Part shown: in pieces, positions 4,851 to 31,458 of the stretch
Layout: the number at the start of each line of letters is the position of its first letter
How positions within the stretch are numbered: the stretch's first letter is position 1
DNA from: a virus
Reading direction: 5' to 3' (one strand)
IMG/VR virus record: IMGVR_UViG_3300042447_000704
Coordinates: 1 to 56,300 of that record
Length of the DNA stretch: 56,300 nucleotides
Notes under the pieces: generated by a model
What the model was told of the DNA's origin: nothing
What the model saw: only the letters and a program-made list of their open reading frames with translations
Databases searched by the model: none
Translations under genes and position numbers: made by a program

Positions 4851-5507
4851 ATGGCTATGGGTATGAAGACACCTCCGGCGCTTGCCGAAACGCGTAGATT
4901 GAACTTCAAAAGGTTGATACAGGAACGCTACGAGGGATCAATCGCGGCCTTCTCGCGGGCAACCGACAAGAACCCGAACTTGATGGCTTTGGTACTCAGC
5001 AACAACCCGACGATTCGCCGGACGATGGGCGAGCGTCAGGCGCGCGAGATCGAAGCGAAGATGGGCCTGCCGGAGCGCTGGCTGGATGTTGAGCGCGGCC
5101 CTTCAAGCGAGGAGAAGTACCACACGTTCGAGATTGTCGAGATGAACGAGGTGGCAGGGTTCGCAGTAGAGAAGCTCACCTATTCTGTTGCGGCGTTACA
5201 GCGCCTCATTGAGCCCTACGGCTCTCTGGGAGCGCTCAAGCTGATGCGGGCATCGACGAACGAGATGACCCCAACAATCTCGATGGGTGACCTCATGTTT
5301 GTTGATACGTCTGTGACGACCTACGCACAACCCGGCGTCTATGTGATCAATCGAGAGTCCTCAGTCTTCCTGCGGCGGGTAAAGACGAGTCTGTCTGGGA
5401 CCGTTCGCATCTCGGCCGACAGTGACGCTGAATTCATCGACGCCCAGCCCGGCGAGTACAGACCTTCTGGTCGCGTAGTCGGTACTCTTCGTTTCGCAAA
5501 ACCGTAG
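4851..5507 (+). CDS. CI-like repressor with degenerate S24 domain, 218 aa
   Basis: The N-terminal half (residues about 15-75) has a helix-turn-helix-like region (IAAFSRATDKNPNLMALVL). The C-terminal half matches the S24 peptidase/repressor fold: EMTPTISMGDLMFVD at 138-152 and GVYVIN at 162-167. In normal members the first motif reads GDSMxPT with the catalytic Ser; here Glu138 is at the Ser position, and at the catalytic Lys position (SVFLRRV) Arg175 is found. Self-cleavage is therefore unlikely. It should hold the lysogenic state by binding the switch operators. The ATGs at 4851 and 4857 both follow the AGGGGG site; 4857 is better spaced. Confidence 0.85.
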   Translation: MAMGMKTPPALAETRRLNFKRLIQERYEGSIAAFSRATDKNPNLMALVLSNNPTIRRTMGERQAREIEAKMGLPERWLDVERGPSSEEKYHTFEIVEMNEVAGFAVEKLTYSVAALQRLIEPYGSLGALKLMRASTNEMTPTISMGDLMFVDTSVTTYAQPGVYVINRESSVFLRRVKTSLSGTVRISADSDAEFIDAQPGEYRPSGRVVGTLRFAKP

Positions 5508-10178: not shown

Positions 10179-10209
10179 TGAGAACCGCATTTTCTCTGGG
10201 AGGTTCTCA
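10179..10209 (+). promoter_or_regulatory. Hairpin over the integrase ribosome-binding site
   Basis: TGAGAACC (10179-10186) and GGTTCTCA (10202-10209) are a perfect 8-bp inverted repeat with a 15-base loop. The Shine-Dalgarno GGGAGG and the A of the ATG lie in the loop and 3' arm. Folding would hide the start, so integrase translation may be held low or be conditional. It could also be an operator. Confidence 0.6.
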
Positions 10210-11138
10210 TGAAGACGCAGCAATCGGATGGTCTGAAAAATAGTCGGATTGTCCCAAAACGTCCGTCGATAAATCCGACGGTCAAATCGGATGGTGCCAC
10301 CACCCTCTCCGAACCGATGACGCAGTTTCAAAAATCGCCTTCTGGACGCACGCTTGTGCGCCAAAAGCATTCTGTGAAACTCGCTCAGTTCTGGCTTGAC
10401 AATCTGGGGGCAGATACGCCTCTGGAAGAAGTCGCCCCCTCAGCAGTACGTCGCATCCTCAATGGGCTGGACATCAGCGGCTCGACAAAGAACCGCTACG
10501 TAGCCGCACTCAGCGTGCTGTACAAGATTGCAGCCGTTGACTTTGACTATGACGGTCCGAACCCGACCCGCAAGATGGTCAAGTGGCCCGAGAACGGGGC
10601 TCGAGTTCGCTCCCTTAATAAAGCAGAGGTCAGCGCCCTGCTGGATGCCTGCAAGACATCGCGATGGCCGAAGCTTCGGCTGCTAGTTCTGATGGCAGTC
10701 ACCACTGGAATGCGCCGGGGCAGCTTGATGGGGATCAGGCACTCAGACATCGACATCAAGTCTGGCCGGATCGTCATCGACAGAACTAAGAACGGCACGC
10801 CCTATGTCGCCATCCTGACTGAGTCAGCATTGGCAGAACTGCGCCCGTGGCACCGCGAGGGCTCTGATGAGCTTCTGTTTAAGGGCAAAACAACGAGGGG
10901 CTACACGCTCGATAAGGAGTACCGCAAAGCTGTCGAGAAGGCTGGGATGGGCGCAGATGTAGTGTTCCACACGCTGCGACATACGGCAGCCTCTATGGCC
11001 GCCCAGAGCGGTGCCAGCACCCTTCAGATAATGGACCTGCTCAATCACAAGACCCCAGTGATGGCGGCCCGTTATGCCCACTTGAACATAACTAGCCGCC
11101 AGACACTGGTTGGCTCGGTCTTCAGCGACATCCGGTAG
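10209..11138 (+). CDS. int: Tyrosine integrase, 309 aa
   Basis: The complete active site is present: Arg169 (TGMRR), Lys194 (RTKNG), His254-x-x-Arg257 (HTLRH), His280 (LNHKT) and Tyr289 (ARYAHL). The N-terminal half carries a core-binding SAM-like domain (about 45-125). It should catalyse recombination between attP (10121-10170) and a host tRNA-Lys gene. The first 36 residues are unusual and encode several copies of an ATCGGAT-like DNA motif that also occurs upstream; an in-frame ATG at 10317 would skip them but lacks a ribosome site. The stop lies one base from the stop of the convergent giant gene. Confidence 0.95.
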   Translation: MKTQQSDGLKNSRIVPKRPSINPTVKSDGATTLSEPMTQFQKSPSGRTLVRQKHSVKLAQFWLDNLGADTPLEEVAPSAVRRILNGLDISGSTKNRYVAALSVLYKIAAVDFDYDGPNPTRKMVKWPENGARVRSLNKAEVSALLDACKTSRWPKLRLLVLMAVTTGMRRGSLMGIRHSDIDIKSGRIVIDRTKNGTPYVAILTESALAELRPWHREGSDELLFKGKTTRGYTLDKEYRKAVEKAGMGADVVFHTLRHTAASMAAQSGASTLQIMDLLNHKTPVMAARYAHLNITSRQTLVGSVFSDIR

Positions 11139-11139
11139 G

Positions 11140-14100
11140 TCACTCCATCCGCTTCTTCTCGGCGTAGAAGGCCCGGTTGAATCGATCGTAGAGTTCTTTT
11201 TTCTTTCGATCGAGGTCAAGCCGGGCCGATTCTTTTTCGGCTCTGCTCATCGACTCGTTATCGATGACAGCAATCTCCATCTTGCGGATGTTGCTCAGAG
11301 CCTCCCTGAGGTTTGACTGAGCGTTGCCCAGCGCAGCCAGCCCCCGAGAGTTGTTGATCCGCTCCATCACCGCGTTCGGGGCCTGTTTGCCCCAGTAGAG
11401 TTTGGCCTCTTCCAGAGCTTTAACTGCCTCGGCCGAATTTTCAAAGAACGCCGACTGCTCGCCCTTGATCGTCTTCGTTTGGTAGAAGGACTTCAGGATC
11501 GGGATCTGATTCTTCTGGATCGAAGCGCCGTCGCCGATTGAAAGCTCAAGATCGATTGCAGAGACGGTGTCTCGGACGAACGATCCAGCGCCACCCGTTG
11601 TAAACCCGATCAAGTACTTCAGAGTCTCTGGGCTGACATCGATCTTGCCGGGAGACGCTTTGCTGCCCTGAGTTGCCTCGTTCAGCCACTCGGTGAACTT
11701 CTGGAGATACGTGCCGCGAGAGCTAGTCCAGTACTTCTCTGAGTCCGGCTTCTCCTCGCCGAGGCGGTCTTCCGGCTTGAGCGGGAACCCCTGCTCGGTC
11801 TTGTTCATCGTCAGAACAGCGATCGGGTCGAACAGGGTCGGCGCAACAAAAGTAGCGAGGTTCTCGGTCGACCCGAGAGGGGAGAAGTGCTGGAAGAATG
11901 CGCTGGTCAGGAACGATGCGACCTTACCGACCTCCTTACCTCTTTGCAGGTCGTACAGACCCTGTCCGAGGTTCACAAAGAATCCCCATCCATAGGTCAG
12001 AGGAATCTTGTACTGGTTGCCTTCGGCATCAAAGAACAGAAGGTTCTTGTGCTTCACGCCGTTCATGTTGGGCTTGTCCCAATACGGCTCATCGTCATCG
12101 CCAACAGCGCCGACAGCCATCATCGCGTTGAAGTAGCCCAGAGCCACCAGACTGGAAACGACAGCGGAGCCCTTCTTGCTGAACGCAAGCTCAGCCACCC
12201 TGCGCGTTCCCTGCACTGCTGGGTTGAAGAACAGGTACAGAGAAGAGAACAGAGGCGTCTTCTTGCCCCTTCGAGCGAAGTCAACGGTGACGTTGGCCGC
12301 CGTATCTACAGCCTCTTTGACCGACTCTCCGGCCTGCCTCGCAGCGGAGTAGGCCGCCACCCTCGCAGCGTTCTCGATCGAGCCGTTGATGTCCATAATG
12401 AACTCTTCGGCTGCGCGGATGAATTTTCTGGCCTCGATGTACCACGACTTCGGGTTCAGAGTGATCGAGTTCTTTGCCTCGGCGATGATCTTGTTCAGCT
12501 GGACTTGCTTCTGCTCCAGCGTCTCAAGCCCGGCAAAGGACTGCATCGCTCCGACATCTCGGTACTCGTTGTAGGCCTGCTTGTAGCGGTTGCCGGTCAT
12601 CGTCCAATCGCCCGTACGCTCGGCCCTCCAGATGTTCCACGCAAGAGGCAAGAGCTTCGGGAGCATTCCGGCCGCCCTCAGGACACCGCCCTTCTTCTCG
12701 ACCCCGGTCTGGATCATTGCGGACTGCAAGTCGCGAACAGCATTGATCAGAACGAACGCAGGAGACAGCGCAGTCCAAAGCTTTGCCAGACCGCGATTGA
12801 TCGAGCGCCACGCCTGCGTCATCATCTTTACGTCGCCGTCTGCCGCAGCGATCGCGGCATTCAGATCGGCAAGCATTGCCGCGTCTTTGACCCAGATGGA
12901 GTACATCTTGCCGTTCACGCGGACAGCGACGGTATTGGCCTCTCGGTTATCAACCGTTGCGACGTAGGAGACGTTGCCCTGAGCGATGCCCAGCGGAGAC
13001 ATCGATCCTTTGTTAAAGCGGCGCGTGAGGATGACTCGATTCACCTCCCAGAGGAGGTCGTCTTTGTTATCCAGAACGAAGCGCAGGAACGCCTGCCTGA
13101 CGGCATTTTTTTCTGCCATCACAATCGCACGCTCGTGATCCCCGAGGATGTTCTCGATGATCTGACCGGCTCGAGATCCGCGACCCAGCGCACGTTTTGC
13201 AAACGGCACTCTGGGGTCCATCTTTCCGGTGGAGCGCATCGAGTCATCGACATCCTCCCAGCCCTTCAGAGGGATGTAGGTGCCTTTGTAGACTGCATTC
13301 CACGAGTCGACGGTGTCCCGATCCACAAGACCGGAACTCAACAGCAGTTGCTGCGTGTCTTTGGTGATCGCCTGAAGCTCTCTGGCAAGACGCTTGAATG
13401 TCTGGAAGTCTGGACGAGCCCTGAATGACTTCAGGAACGCCTTAGCTTCAGCATCGAACATCCCTGACCCGCCGTCCGGGAACTGCGAGTTGATTGCAGC
13501 GATCTGCTGGTTGCGCAGTCTGGCGTGTACTGCGTACAGGTACAGCGCGATATCGTCAGGATCGATGTCGGCCTTAGCGATTCGCTTGAGGATCGGCCGA
13601 ACTTTTGTCTCGCGGAACTTCTCGATCTGAGCGCCCGCTTTGCGATACATGCGGGTCTGCGCCATCTGGACATCCGAGTTGTCCGTCAGTACGCCGCCCT
13701 GTTTGGCGACAGACTCCTGAACTGCTTGAACCCTGCTGACCTCGTTTGCCAGCTGGTTGCTGATCCGCTCCCGAACGGTTCGGGCCGGAAGCGTGAAATT
13801 TACGCCCGGGGTCGGGACGTTCCGCGAGTAGAGCGGGGAACGACCAAAGGTTCCATTAACACCGCTGGTGAGTACCCGTTCCCCCACCGCGTCCAGTCCT
13901 CCTCGGTCCACCGGGAGTAAAACGCTCTTTGTGAATACCGCTCTTTTAAGAGTTGAGCTTCCTGCCGACGCGCTTCTGGCAGCAGGGCTTTTCGCTGCTC
14001 TAGTGAAAGCGTCATCAGGAAAGGGGTTGTAGCTACGATCGAGGAACTGTCCAACTTCAAAGTCGAATCTGACATCGCGCAACTCCGGGACGGCGGCTAA

Positions 14101-17100
14101 GACAGAGTCGGATTCTGCCTCCAACATCTGAGCCAAATTATACCGCGTATCACCGTCTCGCCAGTCGATCGGGCGCAGGTAATTGCCCGCAAATTCGCCC
14201 GCTTCTGCGTAGCCATTGTAGTCATAGGCGCGAGAAGGATCGAACTGATTCGGGTGCGGAAAGAGGTGGTCTGTCGTCCCAAACTTCAGGGACGAACTAA
14301 TCATGTTTGACAGCCGCCGCCACGCTCCAGTCGGGCTAAGTCCAGCAGGGTCTCCGATGAATACCAGCCCGTTGTTGAAGGCGTAGTTGGCAACGAGGTT
14401 GTAGATTGCAGAGCCGCGCGACTCGCCTGACTCTAGCTCTTGAACATCAAGCCAAACCTGCCCGTTACGCTCTCTGAAAATTGCGTACCGATTCTCTTGC
14501 ACCTCTGCCTGAAGCTCAGTCTGGTAGCGGGTTGATTTGTCTTGCCATACAAGCTCGGGCAGAAGCTCTTTAGAGATGTCCTGAAAGGACTTCTTGTCAG
14601 ACCTCTCGTACTTGAACGCGTCGTCTTCTTTGGCGACGTTCTGCCACGCATCTACGGCGCGAGAGAACTTTGCTTGAGCGGCGGGCGCGGTGTCAGGAAG
14701 GGCCGGAATCTTGATATCCGAGTCGGCAGGCAGGCTTCCTCGGCGCTGTTCCTCACTGAGCGTCTTGATGAACTCCAGCATCGGGGCATCAACAAGATCG
14801 TTGCCCGTCAGCGTGAAGACAACCGGGGGCAATGAGGCCTTTTGCGGAGCGAACGGGCGGTCCTTAACAGCAACCCCCTCCGCTTCCGGCCTGAAGTTTT
14901 GCCACGCGTTTTGCAGTCTTGTCTCGGCCGTAATCGCCCAGCGAGCCATAGGGCTGGTCGTGCTTGCCATATGGTTGCGCCACGCGGCAGCTTCGCCGTT
15001 GGGGCCAAACTCGGTGGCAGACAGGTTGTGAGCGAAGTAGTCGTGTACCGCTCTCAACAAATCGTTGTAGAGCATTGGGTAACCGTTCGCGTCCTTCAAG
15101 CCAGAATCTTTCAGGAGCGGATTGCCGGTGAAGTCAGAGCCTTCTGGACCGAAGGTGGCAGGCGATGTCTTGAACGTCTTCAGGCGGTTGTTCTGGCTAA
15201 CGTCCTGACGCATAGCGGCGCTGTTTGGGTACACGTCCCCGTTCATTGCCTCGATGGAGCCGGCGGACGTACCCTTCCACGCTTTCGACTTCCACGCTTT
15301 TGAGGGCTGGCCGAAGTTCTTGCGCAGGTAGTCGAGGACAATCTTTGCCTTCGCCTGAGGCATGCCATCGGCAATCAGACGATCGACCAATTCTTGCGAG
15401 CGCGGGCCCCAGTACGGGTAGACGGCGTCACCGATCTTGACGGTCGCCATCACCTCCACTTTGATCGGGAGGGCTTTGTACTGAGTCGCTATTTCAGCTG
15501 CTGCGGCTTCGTATGCCTGCTTAACTAGAGGGTTTTGCAGGTCATTGGACGGCAGCGCCTCGAATACCGAGGCAAGCGTCTTTTGAGACTTAACCTGAGC
15601 CTGAGTAAGCGCCTTCTGCTTGAAGGGCTCTACCGGGCCCTTCTTGAGAAACTCGGCGACTAGCCTCGGGGTTTTGGTGTCTGACGCTTCGCGGGTACGA
15701 ACGTCACCGTCGATTCGTTCGTAGCCAGCCGTTGCGCCATCTCCTCGTCCGTAAGCGGAGAGGCGTTGATAGCTTTGTTGATTTCTTTGACTCTTTGCGC
15801 CAACCAACTCATATATTCGGGCGACCCCAGCTTCGTATTCCGCGAGGGAGGCGATATGGTTTTCGGGGTTTGCATTTGGTCGTACCCAGTAAGTTGTAAT
15901 TGAAGCGTCGGATACAGTCAGGCCGCTAAGACCGCTCTGCGACAAAATTTCAGACACCTCTTGACCGGACATCGTCTGGTCTAGCGGAATTTCGTGAACA
16001 AGAGTCGAGTAAGAGCCATCTCCAAATTCGTGGCCGATCGGTCTGGAGGTCGGCGTACGAACGTGAATTTGCTCTTGATTATACATCTGAGCAAAGCGAG
16101 AAAGTGCTGCCAAAACAGCAACAGATTCGGAGTCATTGAAGGCGACTTCGAGGCTGATTGCCGGCTCTCTTTCGGACGCATAAGCACCGATGGAGTCAAT
16201 GACTTTTATCTTCGCTTTGGTGCCGCTCAGCAGGAATCTGAGCGAGCTTTCGGCGACCCTTTGAATCAGCGCACCAGCCTCCCGCTCGCCGGCCATCGCC
16301 CTGTCGTACAGGTCTTTGATGCCCGGGATGCTGGATGTGGCAGCAGTCAGGTTGATCGTCGTCTTTTGCCTAAGCTCCTTAGCTTCGCGTAAGCGGACGC
16401 CGCCCTCTGGGACGTACTCTTTGTCGTAGCTTGTGCCGCCGTCTTTGACGAACTGACCGGCATCGCTGCCCTTCCAGTCAGGCTCGTTGATGCCACCTGC
16501 AACTTCTACGATTTTTTCGCGTGCGGCCTCAAACGAAATCTTGCCATCTCGATACTGATCCCAAACGGCGCGAACCGGAGCCTTCATCGTGCTCTTTTCG
16601 TCCGCCCCGAACATTCCCCGGACGGCCTCCCACGTGATCGACTGCATCTCGCGGGGGAGTATCCCGACCTGCTTTGCTGCCTCCCGGTAGGCGTCGGCAA
16701 TGATTCCGTATGTGCCGCCCACACCAATGACCGCAGACTTGCCTGTGCCGCCAAAGTTTTGAGTCACCGGGGCATCGGTGCCAGACAGCGCCTCGAACAA
16801 AGCTGCGGCAACTGCGTGGGTGTCGATCGTGACGTGCCCGATCGCTGACTTCGGGGCGGCGATGTTGTTGTAGAACGAGCGGATTTTGTGTTCGTCGCCC
16901 AGCTGCTCGCTGATGTTCTCGCGAGAGCCGTTACGGAAGATGCTGACAGCCTTCTCGATCGGGCCGTAGGTCGACCACATCATCGTCGATGGCTCGCCGT
17001 TATTCTTCCTTACCAAACCGGAGAACCCGCCCTCTGGAGTGACGATGCGATATTGCCGAGAGTTAAACGCTTCGTCGTACGCCCTGACAAATGCGGCGGC

Positions 17101-20100
17101 ATCTTCCTCGCTCATCTGGCTTAGGGTTGTGCCAGCCTCCATAACCTCTACGGCTCGGTCATAAGCGTCTTGCCGCTTCTCGCGGTCGACAGCGTCAGTA
17201 GCCTCGAAGATATAGCTGCGAGCATAGGCCAGCATATTGCTGTCCCATTTCGTGTCCTTTTGGTTGGTCAGAATGTCGATAGCACGCTCGGCCATTGAGA
17301 CGTTCTGAAACCAATCCTTCTGCGGAGACATCGCGGCCATAATTGCTGCGACCTGCTCCATCGAGAGGTCGTAGTCTTTAGCCATCTCAGTGGCGATCTT
17401 GAATGCGCCGTCGTACCAAAGCTTGCTGCGATCTGCGGTCTCTTTGGGCACGCTGTTGTACAGGTACAGCAGATTGCTGACGATGTTCTTTTTGAACAGG
17501 CTGATCGCCGAGTCTCGCGGCGTGTTTTTGGGGATAAATCCGTACTCGAGAATCGCGTCGATGATCTTTTGCCGGATGTCAGGCTTGTCCGACATAGCCT
17601 CCTCAACGGCAGCCTCATCGATCGACAGCATCTGAGTGATCGGGTCGTACGTCCGTGTTTTGGCAGTTGGGTTTTGGGTTGAAATCTCGGTCTCGCCCGG
17701 CACCGCATTGCGCACGAGACTGTACTTAGGCCGAGGCTCGTCATTGGCCTCCTCCCGGACATAGGGCTCCATCTCTCCGAGGAGATCCTCGGGGCCCATA
17801 TCTCGGTCCCTGTTGATCTGCTCGAGATTGCCCATCTCATCGGCAGGCATCAGGCCAGAGGCAATCATCTTCTTTGCAAGCGACATCACCTGAGACTTCT
17901 TTGTCTCCGGGTCAATGCCGAGATCATCAAACTTGTCCTCTGCCTGCTTACGAGTCATTACCCCTTTCTTTGCAGGCTTTGCCTCATTTACTGCCGGCTG
18001 ATCCGTAACGGCCTCTGGCGCGGCCGGCTGGTTATCGGCATTTATGCTCGGCACTTTTTTGGCCGCCGCCTTCTCCGCTTTTGGCTTTACGTTAAGCGCG
18101 GCCTCAATGAGTTCCTCTGCACCTTTGGCCGGATCATTGTTCAGCTTCTCGAACCGACCCAGTTGATTTGCCGGGATCAGCGCGGAGCCGACCATCTTTT
18201 TGACGACCAACATCGCCCGAGCTTTTTTCAGCCGGCTATCAGGCTCGGCAAGAAGGGCCTCGAGTTGGGCGTCAGCATCACTTCTGGTAATCGCCGGCAG
18301 CTGGTCGACACTGGTAGCACTAGGTGCAACAGTGGGCGCTGGTGTGGCAGTTGGTGCGGGTTGCGTAGCGGCTGGTGCGGGTTGTGCGGGTTGCACAGCA
18401 ACAGGAGCGGCAACCGTCTGAGCGGGCTTCTGTGCTGCTTGCTTTGCCTCGGTGCGCTGTTGCGCCGTGCGGACCTGAACCTCGGACTGGATTTCGTTCA
18501 GCATGCGCTGGACTTGTCGCAGACCCTCTGGGCCTTTGAGGTACTGGACCCGCTTGTTGAACAGCTTCTCGTAGGTGGTGTTCAGGAAGTCTGTCAGGGC
18601 CTGAATGATCTTCGCGGCCTTACCTTCTCCACCTGACCGGCGCACAAGCTCCCGATACATCGCAGGAGTGGCAGCGTGCCCAGCAATGTGAGCAACAAGC
18701 TCAGAGCGGGCGAGAGCGTTGTTCGGGTCCGCCGGGTCGGACAGAATCGTCGCCAGCTGTTGGCGAGCAGCTTGATCGGCAGGATTGGCAACGAGAGCGT
18801 CTACAACCTGCCCGAGTTGCGTAGCTGCGCCGTCCTTCTGAAGCAGGCCGTATGTGTCCAGCATCGCCTTCAGCGCTACCGGCTGAACAAGATTGGCAGA
18901 CGCTTGATACAGCGGGGCAAACAGGTCCGGGTTGTTTTGTTCGAACGCGTGTACCGCCTCGTGGGTCAGCGCCTCAGTCAGTTCAGACGACCTCGCATTC
19001 AGGACAAGCGTCTTGCCATCCCCTGCGTAATAGCCGTGAGGAGCAACGATCGGCTTCCCGTTGCCATCGAGCCGTGTCGATTCAGCAGGGTCGACCAGAA
19101 CAACGTCGATGTCGTACAGCTTTTTGTATGCGAGAGAGAGCCTCTTGAGGGCATCAAACCTCTCCTCGCCGATCGCCTCTGGAGTGGCAAGAGAGACGTT
19201 CTCGATGCCGAAGTTTTCGGCCAAAACAGGAGCGACGTTCTCCTCGACGTACTTTCGTTGAGTCGATACGGGCTGCGCTCTGATCCCGCTGTACGAGCCC
19301 GGGCCCGGGAGATCAATTGTCGGCGTCCAGTCCTCTGCGGGTGCATCTGTTGCTGCAACAGGCGGTGACGTCCCTTCTTGATTCTCAGCCTGTACTGGAG
19401 CCGCAATCGAATCGCCTGCGTCTTGTGCTGGAGGCGCAATCGACTCGGCTGTGTCCTGAACCTTCTGTCCGTCTTCATCAACAGAAGAGACGGCTTGCAG
19501 ATCACGCTCAAGCGAGTCATTAAAGCTCTGTTGCTCGCTGACCGGGGTAGAAGTCTGTGAGGAAGTATTTACATCCTCGAAGGTATTGTTTGCAGGCAAA
19601 ACCTCGGCCCGAGGTGCCGCTGCCGTCGTTTCTCGCTGGGTGGTTTCCGGGATTCTGGGGAGGGTTGTTTGAGACGGGTCGATGTACCGAGAGTCGCCAG
19701 TTCGCATCGAATCGATCGCTGCCGCATCGATTGCTCGCCTATCGAATTCACTTGAATCAACTCCGCCCTGAATGGCGCGAGATACGAGGCCATTGTCTGT
19801 CTCAAGCCGGTCCCTGACCTTACCCAGCCCCTTAGCCCCGCCATACATCAAGCCGCCCTGTATGACCGAGGTCAAGATCGTATCGCCGACCTGAGTCAGA
19901 TAGTCTTTGAGGGTCGCATCCTGATTCAGACCGAGCCCCGGCAGCTTGTCAGTGATGAACTGACCCGTAGTTGTCGCCACCTCGCCGGGGACTTGTTTGG
20001 CAACATAAATTGCCATTGCGTCGGTAAGCTGGTTTGTTGGGACGTCTGCCAACGACCTATTGAAAGTCTTGAAGAGCTTGCCTAGACCAACGCCCTCCCC

Positions 20101-21159
20101 GAGCCCCTCGAATGCAGCAAAGAGCGAGGCCCTCGTCGCGTTCTCTCCCGGAGACAGGCCTGCCTGAAACCCGTCTTTGTAGCTCTCGCCCCACGACTGA
20201 GCAATCATCGCCGCAAGCGGGACCGTTCCTGTACCAGTCGCAACGCCGGCCGCCATCCACGGGAGTTGGGTCGCAATTGACGTGACTGCGCCCTCGAAGT
20301 TCCTTCTAGCGCCGACGGCCTGACCGACCTCGGCAGAGTTCTGCATGTCTCGCGTCTTCTCTTTGAAGAGGCGGTCCCTGTCTACAGAAGTGTCGAGCCC
20401 CAGCGCATCTTTGACGGCAAGACCAAATCCATCCAAAGCGCTTCCGTACGCGTCTTCAATACCGGTTGCGATACGCGATGCGCTGGCAATGTTTGGATTG
20501 TCTCGGAAGAACTGCGCTCGTTCAAAGTCAAAGCCAGTCTGCTCGGCGCTACCTACCTCTCTGTCCTTTCCATAGCCATACGCATAGGAGCTTTCGGCAA
20601 CAGATGGCAATTCGCCCTGCTCGATCCGGCTTGCAATAACGTCTTCTTTTCTCCCGCTAAGTGCGCGAAGGGCAGTTGGGTTCGCATCTTCATAGCGTCG
20701 ATCTAACGCTCGAGATGCCCCGCCAACAAAGTCCGTTCTGGCAGACATCGCTGCGCGTTTCGCCGGAGACGCGCTGTTATAGGCTTCTTGAACCTGCCTC
20801 TGCCCCTCAACGCTCAGCGGGGCACCGACATCCTCAATGGCACGCGGTCGCGCCGGATTCGGCATGTTGTCGAGAACGCTGCCGCGCAAAGAAATTCGAG
20901 GTGTCGGGTCTGGCTCTGGCCTAGACAGCCCTCTCGCAGCTGCCCACGAGCCGGCAGGCATTGACGGCTGTACTTCACGAGGCTCTGGGGAGCGAGCTAC
21001 AGCAGCAGATGTTTCTATCGGGTCTGGCCCCGATGGCCTAAAGTCCAATATGGGGTCATAACTCTCGGCGCGAGCCCTTCTGCGCTCAGTGCCGCGTATC
21101 GCTGAAGAGCGTCTTTCTTGAAGGTCAGGAGCGCCGTCGAGAATTGGATCGTATCCCAT
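11140..21159 (-). CDS. Giant multidomain virion protein (polyvalent, DarB/Bcep22-like), 3339 aa
   Basis: Recognisable parts in order: Gly-rich hydrophobic region (about 290-450); zincin-like domain with HEAVH at 733-737 (about 615-800); Ala/Pro linker (about 910-950); two copies of a helical motif ending SALIPANQ and SGLMPADE (about 985 and 1100); a long helical domain with SPQKDWFQNVS (about 1140-1520); a domain with DYFAHNLSATEFG (near 2045); one with GLVFIGDPAGLSP (near 2263); and a C-terminal region of the large-polyvalent-protein LPD38 kind with FNPAVQGTRR near 2975 and a hydrophobic stretch after it. Such proteins are packaged and ejected into the host, some acting against restriction. 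No methylase or helicase motif is visible. ATG 21157-21159 follows GAGGG. Confidence 0.85.
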   Translation of the reverse strand: MGYDPILDGAPDLQERRSSAIRGTERRRARAESYDPILDFRPSGPDPIETSAAVARSPEPREVQPSMPAGSWAAARGLSRPEPDPTPRISLRGSVLDNMPNPARPRAIEDVGAPLSVEGQRQVQEAYNSASPAKRAAMSARTDFVGGASRALDRRYEDANPTALRALSGRKEDVIASRIEQGELPSVAESSYAYGYGKDREVGSAEQTGFDFERAQFFRDNPNIASASRIATGIEDAYGSALDGFGLAVKDALGLDTSVDRDRLFKEKTRDMQNSAEVGQAVGARRNFEGAVTSIATQLPWMAAGVATGTGTVPLAAMIAQSWGESYKDGFQAGLSPGENATRASLFAAFEGLGEGVGLGKLFKTFNRSLADVPTNQLTDAMAIYVAKQVPGEVATTTGQFITDKLPGLGLNQDATLKDYLTQVGDTILTSVIQGGLMYGGAKGLGKVRDRLETDNGLVSRAIQGGVDSSEFDRRAIDAAAIDSMRTGDSRYIDPSQTTLPRIPETTQRETTAAAPRAEVLPANNTFEDVNTSSQTSTPVSEQQSFNDSLERDLQAVSSVDEDGQKVQDTAESIAPPAQDAGDSIAAPVQAENQEGTSPPVAATDAPAEDWTPTIDLPGPGSYSGIRAQPVSTQRKYVEENVAPVLAENFGIENVSLATPEAIGEERFDALKRLSLAYKKLYDIDVVLVDPAESTRLDGNGKPIVAPHGYYAGDGKTLVLNARSSELTEALTHEAVHAFEQNNPDLFAPLYQASANLVQPVALKAMLDTYGLLQKDGAATQLGQVVDALVANPADQAARQQLATILSDPADPNNALARSELVAHIAGHAATPAMYRELVRRSGGEGKAAKIIQALTDFLNTTYEKLFNKRVQYLKGPEGLRQVQRMLNEIQSEVQVRTAQQRTEAKQAAQKPAQTVAAPVAVQPAQPAPAATQPAPTATPAPTVAPSATSVDQLPAITRSDADAQLEALLAEPDSRLKKARAMLVVKKMVGSALIPANQLGRFEKLNNDPAKGAEELIEAALNVKPKAEKAAAKKVPSINADNQPAAPEAVTDQPAVNEAKPAKKGVMTRKQAEDKFDDLGIDPETKKSQVMSLAKKMIASGLMPADEMGNLEQINRDRDMGPEDLLGEMEPYVREEANDEPRPKYSLVRNAVPGETEISTQNPTAKTRTYDPITQMLSIDEAAVEEAMSDKPDIRQKIIDAILEYGFIPKNTPRDSAISLFKKNIVSNLLYLYNSVPKETADRSKLWYDGAFKIATEMAKDYDLSMEQVAAIMAAMSPQKDWFQNVSMAERAIDILTNQKDTKWDSNMLAYARSYIFEATDAVDREKRQDAYDRAVEVMEAGTTLSQMSEEDAAAFVRAYDEAFNSRQYRIVTPEGGFSGLVRKNNGEPSTMMWSTYGPIEKAVSIFRNGSRENISEQLGDEHKIRSFYNNIAAPKSAIGHVTIDTHAVAAALFEALSGTDAPVTQNFGGTGKSAVIGVGGTYGIIADAYREAAKQVGILPREMQSITWEAVRGMFGADEKSTMKAPVRAVWDQYRDGKISFEAAREKIVEVAGGINEPDWKGSDAGQFVKDGGTSYDKEYVPEGGVRLREAKELRQKTTINLTAATSSIPGIKDLYDRAMAGEREAGALIQRVAESSLRFLLSGTKAKIKVIDSIGAYASEREPAISLEVAFNDSESVAVLAALSRFAQMYNQEQIHVRTPTSRPIGHEFGDGSYSTLVHEIPLDQTMSGQEVSEILSQSGLSGLTVSDASITTYWVRPNANPENHIASLAEYEAGVARIYELVGAKSQRNQQSYQRLSAYGRGDGATAGYERIDGDVRTREASDTKTPRLVAEFLKKGPVEPFKQKALTQAQVKSQKTLASVFEALPSNDLQNPLVKQAYEAAAAEIATQYKALPIKVEVMATVKIGDAVYPYWGPRSQELVDRLIADGMPQAKAKIVLDYLRKNFGQPSKAWKSKAWKGTSAGSIEAMNGDVYPNSAAMRQDVSQNNRLKTFKTSPATFGPEGSDFTGNPLLKDSGLKDANGYPMLYNDLLRAVHDYFAHNLSATEFGPNGEAAAWRNHMASTTSPMARWAITAETRLQNAWQNFRPEAEGVAVKDRPFAPQKASLPPVVFTLTGNDLVDAPMLEFIKTLSEEQRRGSLPADSDIKIPALPDTAPAAQAKFSRAVDAWQNVAKEDDAFKYERSDKKSFQDISKELLPELVWQDKSTRYQTELQAEVQENRYAIFRERNGQVWLDVQELESGESRGSAIYNLVANYAFNNGLVFIGDPAGLSPTGAWRRLSNMISSSLKFGTTDHLFPHPNQFDPSRAYDYNGYAEAGEFAGNYLRPIDWRDGDTRYNLAQMLEAESDSVLAAVPELRDVRFDFEVGQFLDRSYNPFPDDAFTRAAKSPAARSASAGSSTLKRAVFTKSVLLPVDRGGLDAVGERVLTSGVNGTFGRSPLYSRNVPTPGVNFTLPARTVRERISNQLANEVSRVQAVQESVAKQGGVLTDNSDVQMAQTRMYRKAGAQIEKFRETKVRPILKRIAKADIDPDDIALYLYAVHARLRNQQIAAINSQFPDGGSGMFDAEAKAFLKSFRARPDFQTFKRLARELQAITKDTQQLLLSSGLVDRDTVDSWNAVYKGTYIPLKGWEDVDDSMRSTGKMDPRVPFAKRALGRGSRAGQIIENILGDHERAIVMAEKNAVRQAFLRFVLDNKDDLLWEVNRVILTRRFNKGSMSPLGIAQGNVSYVATVDNREANTVAVRVNGKMYSIWVKDAAMLADLNAAIAAADGDVKMMTQAWRSINRGLAKLWTALSPAFVLINAVRDLQSAMIQTGVEKKGGVLRAAGMLPKLLPLAWNIWRAERTGDWTMTGNRYKQAYNEYRDVGAMQSFAGLETLEQKQVQLNKIIAEAKNSITLNPKSWYIEARKFIRAAEEFIMDINGSIENAARVAAYSAARQAGESVKEAVDTAANVTVDFARRGKKTPLFSSLYLFFNPAVQGTRRVAELAFSKKGSAVVSSLVALGYFNAMMAVGAVGDDDEPYWDKPNMNGVKHKNLLFFDAEGNQYKIPLTYGWGFFVNLGQGLYDLQRGKEVGKVASFLTSAFFQHFSPLGSTENLATFVAPTLFDPIAVLTMNKTEQGFPLKPEDRLGEEKPDSEKYWTSSRGTYLQKFTEWLNEATQGSKASPGKIDVSPETLKYLIGFTTGGAGSFVRDTVSAIDLELSIGDGASIQKNQIPILKSFYQTKTIKGEQSAFFENSAEAVKALEEAKLYWGKQAPNAVMERINNSRGLAALGNAQSNLREALSNIRKMEIAVIDNESMSRAEKESARLDLDRKKKELYDRFNRAFYAEKKRME

Positions 21160-21170
21160 ACTTCCCTCAG

Positions 21171-22502
21171 TTATTTTTTGATTGCAGTTGTGCGCGCACG
21201 CTCTCTGTCGAGAGCCTCTCTGAGACGAACCTCAACTGCGGCGTTACGTCCGGCGATCCTTTGAGCTTCGGGGACCAAATTGCTGTTGTATGGGACTGTT
21301 TTGTCTTTGGCGTCGTAGGAGACGCGCCAATTCTTTGTCTGAGCATCCTGAGTGAATCTGATGTTCTTCAGCGCATCAGCCTCGTATGCGGCGAACGTCT
21401 TGAGCGCGATTGCTTGCGCATCTGTAGCGTTGGTCGCCGCCCCAGACCGGAGGGCGCGCATCCCAAAGTCGCGAAGCTTCTCCTTCTGGAACTCATCGAC
21501 CTTTTCGCCCTTCATATCCGGGCCCAGAACCTGCCCAACAGCAAAGCTGTATCGCGGCTGAGCCTGATTGATGTTGTCGTTAAAAATGCTGGCTTCTTTG
21601 TTGAACGCCTTTAAGGAAAGGCCGCCGGTCTCAGGGCCTCCGTCATCGCCACCACTGCCACCGCCGCCACCTCTAGGTCTGTTTGCTGAATCTACAGCGG
21701 CCTGCGCCCTGAGGGCATCAGCTTTCATTCGTGCGCCCGCTATTTCCCGCTCGTTCCTGCCGGCAGACGGGTCGGTCACAGGAAGGCCCATAGCCATCTG
21801 GAAGGTTGCAAGCTCCTGCTTGACTTGCTTACCTTCCTTTGATGTTGCGTATAAGTAAGGCGTGTACAGCTTTGTGTTTGGGTCCTGCTCGACCACCATC
21901 CTCATCGACTTAGGTTCATATCCGAACCTTTCGGCCAGAGCATTAGCGGGACCGACATCTCCCGCCATCCACTGCTGAAGCGCCTTAGCAGTCCCATCCT
22001 TCTCCATCGCGGTTCGCATGTCCGTCAGCTGCTTCAGCGTGCCCGGGTCCATCTTCCCGCTCTTCGCAAGATGCCCAGTGAATTCGCTCAGGTAGTTGCT
22101 GAGAACGATCGGGTCGGTCGGGCTAGGCGTCTTCATACGAACATTGCCGGCCTCGTCTTTGATCTCTACGCCATTCGCATCCCGCTCTGGAACAGAGCCA
22201 AAGTGGCGTTCATAGATTTTCGATGACCCCTGCCTAAAAGTGTCCTCTTCGGCGCGTTTGCGCTCAGCCTCAGACATCCTGAAGTCGAAGTCTTTTTGCG
22301 TGCGGATGGCAGCTTCGCGCTTCATGACCATATCTTCGTCTGCGCGCAAGTCTGCGGCGGCCGCACGCTTGTCAGCAAGCGCCCCAGACATTTCGCTTTG
22401 CAGCTGCTTTTGCCGCATCAACTCGATGTAGTCGTCGTTGTTGCGCTGCTTAGCTTTTTGTTGGATGGCCCCAGTCAGGCCGGTAAAGAAGTTCTCAGCC
22501 AT
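21171..22502 (-). CDS. Internal virion / ejection protein candidate, 443 aa
   Basis: The start is ATG 22500-22502, one base past the upstream stop; the open frame extends to 22586 but only over that gene. The N-terminal 110 residues are a long charged coiled-coil-like stretch (LADKRAAAADLRADEDMVM). A Gly-rich hinge (about 325-335, RGGGGGSGGDDGG) separates a helical C-terminal part. It has no signal peptide and no enzyme motif. Lying between another helical virion protein and the giant protein, it fits the set of DNA-ejection proteins carried in podovirus heads. Function is inferred from position. Confidence 0.65.
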   Translation of the reverse strand: MAENFFTGLTGAIQQKAKQRNNDDYIELMRQKQLQSEMSGALADKRAAAADLRADEDMVMKREAAIRTQKDFDFRMSEAERKRAEEDTFRQGSSKIYERHFGSVPERDANGVEIKDEAGNVRMKTPSPTDPIVLSNYLSEFTGHLAKSGKMDPGTLKQLTDMRTAMEKDGTAKALQQWMAGDVGPANALAERFGYEPKSMRMVVEQDPNTKLYTPYLYATSKEGKQVKQELATFQMAMGLPVTDPSAGRNEREIAGARMKADALRAQAAVDSANRPRGGGGGSGGDDGGPETGGLSLKAFNKEASIFNDNINQAQPRYSFAVGQVLGPDMKGEKVDEFQKEKLRDFGMRALRSGAATNATDAQAIALKTFAAYEADALKNIRFTQDAQTKNWRVSYDAKDKTVPYNSNLVPEAQRIAGRNAAVEVRLREALDRERARTTAIKK

Positions 22503-22503
22503 C

Positions 22504-23547
22504 TCAGGCCTCCAGAGCTTTGCGCCGATGAACAGGCGGCTTGCCGTTAGTCTTCTCGACGATCTTGTCGAGCTTGCTGATGCCAATCTTGCGGACCGTT
22601 GCGGCCGGCAGCACGTACTCTCCGTTAGACAGTCGGATCGGCGAGCCGTCGTCTTGATTGACCGCAGGTACGCTGTCAGAAGTGCCAGTGCCGGGACCTC
22701 GAACTAAGCCACCGTCCGCGAAGAAGATACCTCCAACCGCACCGCCAATCCCAGACAAAAGCTGGTTGTTGGCTTGATTCGCAGCCATCTGATTCTGGAA
22801 GCCCATATTGGTCATGTTCGCGCCAGAGGTCAGCGCGCTGCCGTAGCCCTGCATACCAGCCAGTGCGTTGCCGGTGTACATCTGACCAACGCGATCGGCT
22901 GATCCCATTGCGCCCTGCCCAACAGATGCAGCGCCAGAGCCCGCCTGTGCGGCACCAGAGCCAGCATTGATTGCAGCGATCGACTGCGCCGAAAGGCCTC
23001 GGCCCATACCCGTCACGCCGGCCAGTCTCTGGAAGCCCTGATCTCTCGCTTGCTGGGTCGCAGTGTTCTGAGCCTGAGCCTGCATCGCAGCGCCCTGTAG
23101 GCCAGCACCAGACAGCAGCTGCATCATCCGGCCCGAGTTCGGATTGACGCCCATCCGTTCAAGCGCTCGTACAGATTGACCGCGCTGGTTATCCAGAGCC
23201 TGCTGGACGTTAGCGCCGGCCTGAGAGGCCATACGTTCACGCTCCGCATCAGTGTTCCACGCAGTGGCCTGATCGATCAGCTGCTTCTCTAGAGGCCTGA
23301 AGGTGCCTTTGTTGTACTCGTAGTTGTCTTTGGCCTGATCCATCGCCAGAGCCTGCGCATCCAGCTGGCCGGCCATCAACGCGGACTGGTTGTCCATCAG
23401 CCGCTGTTGATAAGGCAGCATCGCTTGATAGCGCTCGTTTGCTGTTCGGAATTGCTCTTGAGCAAAGCCGAGGTACTGCTGGCCCATCTCCTTCGTCGCA
23501 TTGATAAACGGCGAGTAGTCCGGCGCTCTTGATTTACTGCCCATCAT
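22504..23547 (-). CDS. Internal virion protein with GPGTGTSDSVPA tail, 347 aa
   Basis: Residues 20-130 are a long Gln/Ala-rich helix; 185-285 are Ala/Gly-rich and hydrophobic (AGSGAAQAGSGAASVG), possibly membrane-interacting. The end has GGLVRGPGTGTSDSVPA and LSNGEYVLPA, a motif I know from many phage head or ejection proteins. ATG 23547 and the next codon ATG follow GAGGTGA. It overlaps the upstream GNAT gene by 14 bases. It is likely packaged in the head and ejected with the two proteins that follow. Confidence 0.7.
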   Translation of the reverse strand: MMGSKSRAPDYSPFINATKEMGQQYLGFAQEQFRTANERYQAMLPYQQRLMDNQSALMAGQLDAQALAMDQAKDNYEYNKGTFRPLEKQLIDQATAWNTDAERERMASQAGANVQQALDNQRGQSVRALERMGVNPNSGRMMQLLSGAGLQGAAMQAQAQNTATQQARDQGFQRLAGVTGMGRGLSAQSIAAINAGSGAAQAGSGAASVGQGAMGSADRVGQMYTGNALAGMQGYGSALTSGANMTNMGFQNQMAANQANNQLLSGIGGAVGGIFFADGGLVRGPGTGTSDSVPAVNQDDGSPIRLSNGEYVLPAATVRKIGISKLDKIVEKTNGKPPVHRRKALEA

Positions 23548-28838: not shown

Positions 28839-30502
28839 AGCTGTTTCATCTCATCCATCGATCCGGTTAGCAGGATCTGCTCGACCTCAGCTGTTCCAGA
28901 GACCTGAACCTCGACCGAGTTGTACTTCTTCCCCGCTGGCAGCCTGAACGCATTTCCTGCCGTCACAGACAACGTGTACGTTGTGTCGGTGTCGTACGTG
29001 GAGAACGTCAGACTTACTGGGTAAGACTTCGCAACTACCTGTCCGACACCCAACGTCTCTGGCTTAGGCAAAGTGAACCGCTTGCTCTTCCACGTATAGG
29101 TCAGTGCTGACCCTGTATCGAACTTCACGATATTGCTGCCAACGAGCAGATACAGAGAGTCCGTCAACGGTTCGAGGTAGCCGGCCGTTGCGGTCAGATT
29201 CAGCGTCACCAAAGCCGGCTCTTGTCCGTTGAAGCTGAAGACCAGACATCCGGTCACTGTGCCGGTGTCGTAGAAGGCGAAGTACCTGCCGTCGTACTGA
29301 TACGCGTGCATCGAGGTTGGTTTATAGGCCTGCCACTCCTCTTTGGTGAACAGCCCCTTCGTCAACAGCTGTACGCCGCCACCGCTGATCTGAGCCAGCC
29401 CATCAGGGCTTGCGTACACCACCCCGTTGTTCATCGTCACGGCAGAGCGCTTCGATACGCAGGCATGCAACTCATCGAGGCGAGTCATCGACATCGATGA
29501 TGGGTCGGCACCCTGAATCAGGTACGGATAGGCGGCCGTCAGGACCGCCAGAGACTGCCCAAAAGCCTTCGTGGCGACGATCTGGTAGTCGGATACCAAC
29601 TCGTTCTCACGCTTCCACGCATGAGGCATGTACGGCTCTGAGAAGCAGATTATGTTTCCTGCATAACCCGCCATAATCCCGTTCGCCATCAGCGTCAGGC
29701 CGAGAAGCGTGTACGGAGACGGGCCGTTCGTGCCCGGCTCATTGTCTGCCGCGTTTCGAGGCGGATACCAGCCATCACTCGGAATTATTTCGCCCAGCTG
29801 GCCCGATGTCTTGTTGTCCGTAAACGAGGTCGTTGCGGCTGCAACCTCAGCGACGAACTGGAAGTCGGTTGCGTTCGTTCCGCTGACCGTTCTGTAGATG
29901 CGCTTGCGGTCAACTGTACGGTTTGACTTTACAGGGGCCGTTGACATGCCAGAGATCGCAACAGACTGCCCAGTCAGGACCGAGACGCTGGAGACGGTAG
30001 CCGGCGGGCCTTCTTCGCCGAGAGGCGTAACGAACGTGTAGGTGTAGTACCTCTGCTCGGCTACGGTGTCTGTGCCCGCACCAGTTGCAGCTACGGTGGC
30101 GCTGGTAGCGGGAGGCTCAACCCCGAGCCTGTAGTAGCCGTTGGGATACGTTCCAGCACCGGGCACTAAGGTCGAGGTGGTCATCCTCGGCTCTTGCCCT
30201 GCGACTGTGTAATAGGTCCGCTCGAAGATATCGCCAGCCACGGGGCCTCGAGCCACATCAGCATCGGCCGTGAACTCCAGCCAATACTGCGTATCCGTAG
30301 ACTCGCCCTGCCCGAATCGATAGATCGAGACGGGATTGCCAAGAGAGCGCTTCCCTACGATCGTGGTCGAAGCTTTGAATGGCTTCAATGATCCGCCCGT
30401 GATCTTTGTGTTCACAGCGTTCTGCGCGGCGGAATCCTTCAGCATCCGGTTGTTGATGACCGGATACATCCCGTCGAAGGACTTGATTGCTATTGCTGTC
30501 AT
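28835..30502 (-). CDS. Tail nozzle / tubular protein candidate, 555 aa
   Basis: This strand-rich protein begins IAIKSFDGMYPVINNRML, has GEEGPPATVSSVSV inside an FN3-like stretch (about 130-225), and then repeats of blades such as IVATKAFGQSLAVLTAAYPYLIQG, VVYASPDGLAQ and DSLYLLVGSN that look like a beta-propeller. That order and its place before the long fibre gene fit the T7 gp12/BPP-1-type nozzle at the end of a short tail. No enzyme motif is present. The start is ATG 30500-30502, overlapping the metallophosphoesterase stop. Confidence 0.7.
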   Translation of the reverse strand: MTAIAIKSFDGMYPVINNRMLKDSAAQNAVNTKITGGSLKPFKASTTIVGKRSLGNPVSIYRFGQGESTDTQYWLEFTADADVARGPVAGDIFERTYYTVAGQEPRMTTSTLVPGAGTYPNGYYRLGVEPPATSATVAATGAGTDTVAEQRYYTYTFVTPLGEEGPPATVSSVSVLTGQSVAISGMSTAPVKSNRTVDRKRIYRTVSGTNATDFQFVAEVAAATTSFTDNKTSGQLGEIIPSDGWYPPRNAADNEPGTNGPSPYTLLGLTLMANGIMAGYAGNIICFSEPYMPHAWKRENELVSDYQIVATKAFGQSLAVLTAAYPYLIQGADPSSMSMTRLDELHACVSKRSAVTMNNGVVYASPDGLAQISGGGVQLLTKGLFTKEEWQAYKPTSMHAYQYDGRYFAFYDTGTVTGCLVFSFNGQEPALVTLNLTATAGYLEPLTDSLYLLVGSNIVKFDTGSALTYTWKSKRFTLPKPETLGVGQVVAKSYPVSLTFSTYDTDTTYTLSVTAGNAFRLPAGKKYNSVEVQVSGTAEVEQILLTGSMDEMKQL

Positions 30503-31458
30503 TTCAACTCTTCACAGTCAATGAGTTGGCCTCGGAAGAACAAGCGCCCCTCGTCGACCACCATCGCAATTTCGGGGGGCATCAAGACACCACCCTTAAA
30601 CGTCAGCACAGCAAAGCCAGAGCGCCAGTTCCTCGGACCTTCGGCCATATAGTTGAACTGCGGCCCGAACACGTCAGCAAGAGTCCCCGTATCTACACCG
30701 TATAAATGCCCGCCATTGAGCGGGCTAAGTGTCGTTCGAGGAGTGACCTTCAACGAGTGGAGGTGCCCGCAGACGGTATTGATCTGAGCGTCAGAGGTCG
30801 ATGTCCACGTGGCATGCACGCCGTTCTTCAGGCGGTGAGTGATGATCGTGTGGTTGTTAACGAAGATAGACCACGCAGATACCCACCTCGGCAGCTGCTG
30901 ATCCAGCGAGAACCCCTCCACGCCCTCGAACTCAGGCGAGGTGGCAGCGAGTTTGGTATCGAAACGCAGATCGTGATTGCCGTGAGTCCTAAGCAGCTTT
31001 GCGCCACCAGCTGCCTTCTCGATCTCCTCGCATCGGTCTATGACAGCCTCAAGCTCCTCTTTCATCGAGGGGCGCTTTTCCCAGCCAATGCGACCGTGGC
31101 GAGACGCCGTAGCAGCATCCAGAATGTCCCCGTTCAGAATCACAGCCCACGGCTTGAGTTCTTTGATGATGTGGACAAAGCCAATATGCGCAGCTGTAAT
31201 TTCGCCGGGCCAATAGTGGGCATCTGAGCCGATGACCATCACCCCGTCATCGATACTGACATCCAGTCGCATCCGGCCCGGCTTGATCGTCACCAGAGAA
31301 TCGCGCATTGGAAGCTCGTGCCCCTTAGAGATGAGGGCGGCTCTGCGGGCGTAGATACTGCGCGGATGGGTGTTCAGCGTCTCTGCCATCTTGTAGACGG
31401 TCGGAGACAGCTTCCAGAGTCTTATGAACTCCGACTCACTGCACTTCGGCGCACTCAT
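30499..31458 (-). CDS. Calcineurin-like metallophosphoesterase, 319 aa
   Basis: All metal motifs are present: Asp79-x-His81 (GSDAHYW), Gly-Asp111-x-x-Asp (NGDILDA), Gly-Asn161-His-Asp (HGNHDLR), His208 (IITHR) and GHxH at 231-234 (CGHLH). Residues 1-50 are a helix-turn-helix-like region (VYKMAETLNTHPRSIYARRAAL), so the enzyme may act on or at DNA. The family hydrolyses phosphomonoesters and phosphodiesters, including DNA 3' ends. Its place among tail genes is unusual; it might be a packaged or late host-acting enzyme. The start ATG 31456-31458 overlaps the previous gene by 23 bases. Confidence 0.88.
   Translation of the reverse strand: MSAPKCSESEFIRLWKLSPTVYKMAETLNTHPRSIYARRAALISKGHELPMRDSLVTIKPGRMRLDVSIDDGVMVIGSDAHYWPGEITAAHIGFVHIIKELKPWAVILNGDILDAATASRHGRIGWEKRPSMKEELEAVIDRCEEIEKAAGGAKLLRTHGNHDLRFDTKLAATSPEFEGVEGFSLDQQLPRWVSAWSIFVNNHTIITHRLKNGVHATWTSTSDAQINTVCGHLHSLKVTPRTTLSPLNGGHLYGVDTGTLADVFGPQFNYMAEGPRNWRSGFAVLTFKGGVLMPPEIAMVVDEGRLFFRGQLIDCEELK

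Follow-up and report, generated by a model that had tools for sequence, protein, structure and literature searches.

A putative DNA glycosylase-like domain in the exchangeable centre of a giant phage protein

What does a phage protein of 3339 residues carry in its middle? The window analysed here, the whole 56,300-nucleotide stretch of IMG/VR virus record IMGVR_UViG_3300042447_000704, contains one uninterrupted reading frame of 3339 aa at 11140-21159, which takes 17.8% of the contig. This agrees with the first-pass annotation, which had described a 3339-residue product filling nearly a fifth of the genome and had read it as an ejected polyvalent protein with no known enzyme halves. No strand was named at that stage; the gene lies on the minus strand.

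Genomic setting and scaffold of the giant protein

The contig begins and ends with the same 129 bp, a direct repeat that would fit a complete genome of about 56.2 kb. A nucleotide search against phages and plasmids gave no match. The genome encodes a CI-like repressor (4851-5507, plus strand), a tyrosine integrase (10209-11138, plus strand), a DnaB-like helicase, small and large terminase, a portal/adaptor, a major head protein and a tail fibre. The giant gene shares its strand with the terminase, portal, major head and tail-fibre genes, the late-gene position of the polyvalent type. Judged by its genes, this phage is temperate and has a late operon of podovirus type that ends in the giant gene. 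The operon, which also contains a metallo-phosphoesterase-like gene (phrog_221; 30499-31458, minus strand), extends up to the integrase gene; integrase and giant gene converge, and their ends are 1 bp apart.

The features of the giant gene are as follows, from the start of the protein to its end.

11140-21159, minus: whole giant gene, 3339 aa, the final gene of the late operon, beginning 11 bp past the upstream same-strand gene (21171-22586)
19825-20295, minus: Gly/hydrophobic helical stretch, aa 289-445, from sequence; a comparable stretch occurs in a relative (L029) at 28%
18505-19242, minus: zincin-type metallopeptidase domain, aa 640-885, with HEAVH (733-737) and E820 as the candidate third ligand
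18103-18294, minus: helical linker repeat 1 (SALIPANQ), aa 956-1019, by repeat alignment
17776-17961, minus: helical linker repeat 2 (SGLMPADE), aa 1067-1128, by repeat alignment
16390-17685, minus: DUF7178 domain by Pfam, aa 1159-1590, HhH-GPD DNA glycosylase-like by predicted fold and profile alignment
15670-16368, minus: predicted tandem ferredoxin/ACT-like fold, aa 1598-1830, from weak structure matches
14800-15612, minus: conserved partner domain (phrog_3170) with a VHDYxAH / GE / H / ETRxQN motif, aa 1850-2120, from conservation, fusion and neighbourhood
13921-14652, minus: LPD37, aa 2170-2413, by Pfam
11143-13842, minus: conserved ejection-type C-terminal region, aa 2440-3339 (phrog_14770/616/10691)
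12103-12168, minus: single transmembrane-like segment, aa 2998-3019
11497-12057, minus: LPD38, aa 3035-3221, by Pfam

The metallopeptidase-like site noticed at first pass occurs once, at aa 733, where an HExxH motif exceeds chance (composition-based expectation 0.009). In the relative L080, the motif and the downstream Glu are kept as HEAFH and ARSEL, and nearly all close carriers of the central module have an HExxH upstream of it. HEAVH and E820 are arranged as in the zincin that polyvalent proteins have as their hub domain. The Gly/hydrophobic stretch is probably membrane-active. SALIPAN (aa 992) and SGLMPAD (aa 1101) are present in a single copy each, and the segments that contain them align with a score of 113, against a maximum of 49 in 500 shuffles, so the helical repeat proposed earlier is genuine. 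We also considered this repeat as a general cargo junction and rejected the idea, since the repeat is confined to this lineage. The expected LPD-type domains were found by Pfam as LPD37 (E 1.6e-57) and LPD38 (E 2.7e-26).

The final ~900 aa match three PHROGs families of giant proteins (phrog_616/10691/14770), and by tblastn the C-terminal part is ~28% identical to proteins of Vibrio, Burkholderia, Erwinia and Stx phages. The giant proteins of Bcep22-like, Vibrio and Stx phages are thus related to ours over this region and differ from it in the N-terminal part and the central cargo. The N-terminal 1199 aa had no match among cultured phages.

Several unrelated domains, including a zincin and LPD domains, are therefore combined in one very large protein. 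The phage polyvalent proteins (PMC5512222) share this plan of a giant multidomain late-gene product that combines a zincin and LPD domains with cargo that can be exchanged; unlike them, the present protein appears to carry a DNA glycosylase-like domain as cargo. The word glycosylase is absent from the main text of Iyer et al. 2017 on polyvalent proteins (PMC5512222). P1 DarB, a head-borne multidomain protein that acts early after entry (PMC5512222), is alike in being multidomain, whereas the giant protein is without LPD36, methylase and SNF2 helicase; Pfam gave no match to DarB-type methylase or helicase domains in it, in line with the first-pass reading. Domain content, gene position and relatives all support its reading as an ejected polyvalent protein that has a zincin and LPD domains and no DarB parts. 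Gene position and relatives further suggest that virions contain it and release it together with the DNA.

Exchange of the central cargo between scaffolds

Comparison with the IMG/VR contig L080 delimited the centre of the protein. Its giant protein is 43% identical to ours in the N-terminal part and 61% at the C-terminus, and the N-terminal similarity stops at aa 1142, directly behind linker repeat 2. In place of our centre it has ART-PolyVal, MuF-C-like and zeta-toxin-like domains. The reverse pattern was found in many other giant proteins, which share aa ~1110-2165 at 53-63% identity; outside this region no similarity was detected at E 1e-5. Since L080 keeps the same ends with a different payload, the middle is an exchangeable cargo. 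Other giant carriers of DUF7178 add a methyltransferase, an ART, an inorganic pyrophosphatase, or GGDEF plus RadC. The window protein gave no match to a MuF domain, and a weak MuF-C match was found solely in the L080 cargo.

Some further arrangements were observed. L080 9962-21262 encodes the sister giant protein with the ART/MuF-C-like/zeta-toxin-like cargo. On L025 (2-11205), the central module and the ejection-type C-terminal region lie on separate ORFs. On the SAR116 contig L095 (9011-12540), the DUF7178 carrier is split into three ORFs of 458, 83 and 612 aa, by frameshifts or decay.

The DUF7178 domain and its partner

The first part of the cargo belongs to DUF7178 (PF23802), with a Pfam score of 109.9 bits against a gathering cut-off of 27, and also corresponds to phrog_3842. 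To our knowledge, this family has no assigned function. A literature search found no paper that mentions DUF7178; of two papers in which "polyvalent protein" and "glycosylase" occur together, one uses the latter word solely for T4 endonuclease V.

In 43 of 43 non-redundant sequences, SPQKDWFQN (SPQKDW at 1278-1283), K1425, D1446, Q1506 and W1510 are invariant. The structure was predicted with high scores (pLDDT 92.5, pTM 0.90). The best PDB match of this model was the 8-oxoguanine DNA glycosylase AGOG (1xqp), a weak match (probability 0.60, E 0.2, TM 0.36, rmsd 11.8). The other PDB matches listed stood at 0.12 or below, namely a second AGOG at 0.12 and otherwise unrelated helical proteins. Among predicted viral proteins, the model matched small free-standing phage proteins.

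We compared DUF7178 with glycosylases by profile alignment. With hhalign, solo DUF7178 against the Nth family gave E 0.014, a level reached by 1 of 200 column shuffles, at a low absolute probability (3%). The unconstrained path placed the invariant Lys on Lys120 and the invariant Asp on Asp138 of endonuclease III, and in the solo homologue L107 the spacing between the two residues is 18, as in endonuclease III. By profile alignment, then, DUF7178 has the catalytic Asp, and the Lys of lyases, at a conserved spacing. This signal arose only from the solo DUF7178 subset combined with the larger Nth set: the polyvalent DUF7178 set gave nothing against four Nth/MutY sequences, and the mixed Nth and MutY set gave a non-significant result, with 15 of 150 shuffles as high. 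The Pfam HhH-GPD and AGOG profiles did not match DUF7178 at E 10, PDB sequence searches gave no glycosylase match to this region, and DUF7178 does not conserve the LPGVG hairpin seen in classic HhH proteins. DUF7178 is thus like the HhH-GPD glycosylases endonuclease III and AGOG in Lys/Asp register and possibly in predicted fold, and unlike them in sequence family and hairpin. Given the missing Pfam match and the non-significant mixed-set result, we did not file it as an HhH-GPD member.

Based on the model and the alignment, DUF7178 probably resembles an HhH-GPD DNA glycosylase and works like one. The first-pass statement that the protein has no known enzyme halves does not hold for aa 1159-1590, which appear to show the HhH-GPD glycosylase fold signature and align with both catalytic residues; the centre looks like a previously unrecognised enzyme domain of the DNA-repair type. 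Alternatively, DUF7178 may have an HhH-GPD-like or other helical fold and catalyse another reaction, with free nucleotides or modified nucleosides among the conceivable substrates, or it may do no more than bind DNA. The marginal sequence similarity to real glycosylases would fit this, as would the invariant SPQKDW, which is without an established counterpart in glycosylases. However, K and D are invariant and stand in the exact catalytic register of the best profile alignment, and we consider this alternative unlikely.

The second part of the cargo follows a predicted spacer. A fold search with aa 1590-2165 returned weak ferredoxin/ACT-like matches and none for the VHDYxxH part. The partner domain (aa 1850-2120) is fused to DUF7178 in the window protein, in a 928-aa protein (L066) and in L036 and L060. 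In mycobacteriophages Cane17 and Astraea, as well as Gordonia phage Skog, the DUF7178 gene is immediately followed by one for this domain. Fusion and gene neighbourhood together suggest that DUF7178 and this domain act together. The domain is possibly a metal-dependent enzyme, as its set of His, Asp and Glu residues could bind a metal. Several groups of phages have this phrog_3170 VHDYxxH/ETRxQN domain, as in the window and in L232, L233 and L234, either fused to DUF7178 or next to it.

Solo relatives and a proposed role at DNA entry

A permissive tblastn search found solo relatives of DUF7178 in actinophages, cyanophages and roseophages. These homologues are 195-210 aa long, and depositors named several of them glycosylase, DNA glycosylase or N-glycosylase/DNA lyase. 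SIO1 gp9, a cyanophage gp9 and the actinophage "glycosylase" (PF23802/phrog_3842) are homologous to the central domain and keep the same invariant K, D, W, N and Q. Whereas the solo proteins have a single domain of ~200 aa, the window version has a large helical insert and sits inside an ejection protein. Overall, 289 phage records (at the permissive cut-off) and hundreds of viral contigs carry DUF7178.

These relatives bear on whether the whole giant protein is structural, an ejection channel or scaffold whose central domains are not enzymatically active. The C-terminal region is indeed the part most widely shared among cultured phages, but the putative catalytic residues are strongly conserved, and the centre also occurs by itself, in proteins of 195-210 aa, and moves between scaffolds. 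We regard a purely structural role as very improbable.

The positions of DUF7178 genes are of two kinds. In Lentibacter ICBM2 (gene 3), Maribacter Panino and Rhodococcus Dorin, the solo gene sits close to an end of the genome, surrounded by other small genes, a placement that would be typical of early genes. The second kind is a place within a block of virion genes. In L062 the carrier gene follows the portal gene immediately, and in CRP-738 with one small gene in between; in L042 it is flanked by genes for a tail protein and an internal virion protein, in L093 it comes after a member of that tail family, and in Myrna, Astraea and Cane17 it stands a short way downstream of the major head protein gene. 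Either location would suit a function needed as infection begins.

Our favoured reading, which we hold at slightly better than even, is a modular ejection protein whose central cargo excises bases from DNA at entry. The analysis shows the domain boundaries, the relatives, the exchange of cargo, the invariant residues, a confident fold prediction and the gene positions; the injection, the release, the chemistry and the substrate are inferred. The C-terminal ~900 aa would probably serve virion assembly and envelope passage, and the giant protein would be ejected with the phage DNA. Once delivered, the N-terminal zincin would probably cut the chain into working pieces. The cargo would comprise DUF7178 with candidate catalytic residues K1425 and D1446, the ferredoxin-like spacer and the putative metal-binding partner, and its most likely task would be to remove bases that are damaged or modified from DNA during the opening minutes of infection. 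As target, the incoming phage genome, with virion damage or base adducts from host defence, seems more probable than the host chromosome.

The opposite target must also be weighed. A cargo acting as a glycosylase/lyase on the host chromosome would leave abasic sites or breaks and serve as a takeover toxin, with the phage DNA spared by timing or modification. Related scaffolds do fill the cargo position with toxin-like domains (ART, zeta-toxin-like, MuF-C), and some mid-size proteins bear a C-terminal DUF7178 beside portal genes, as MuF toxins do. Yet the phage is temperate, with its repressor and integrase, its scanned ORFs include no modification genes, and the solo forms sit among ordinary small phage genes; we give host attack a low probability. 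The anti-host function raised in the first-pass annotation is possible; a role on DNA at entry, to repair or clean the genome as it arrives, is an equally good fit or a better one.

A bolder form of our favoured reading is that DUF7178 and the VHDYxxH domain make up a virion-delivered two-part base-excision system that frees the entering phage DNA of damage or of base adducts installed by the host. It would be a counter-defence used by many unrelated phages, either as a small expressed gene or as injected cargo. We advance this speculatively and think it rather unlikely in full.

If base excision at entry is correct, DNA repair or base cleaning would begin before any phage gene is expressed, and base excision would join the repertoire of phage-injected proteins. 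The proposal gives the widespread DUF7178/phrog_3842 family a specific, testable chemistry, and the fusion and neighbourhood data name a partner domain for it.
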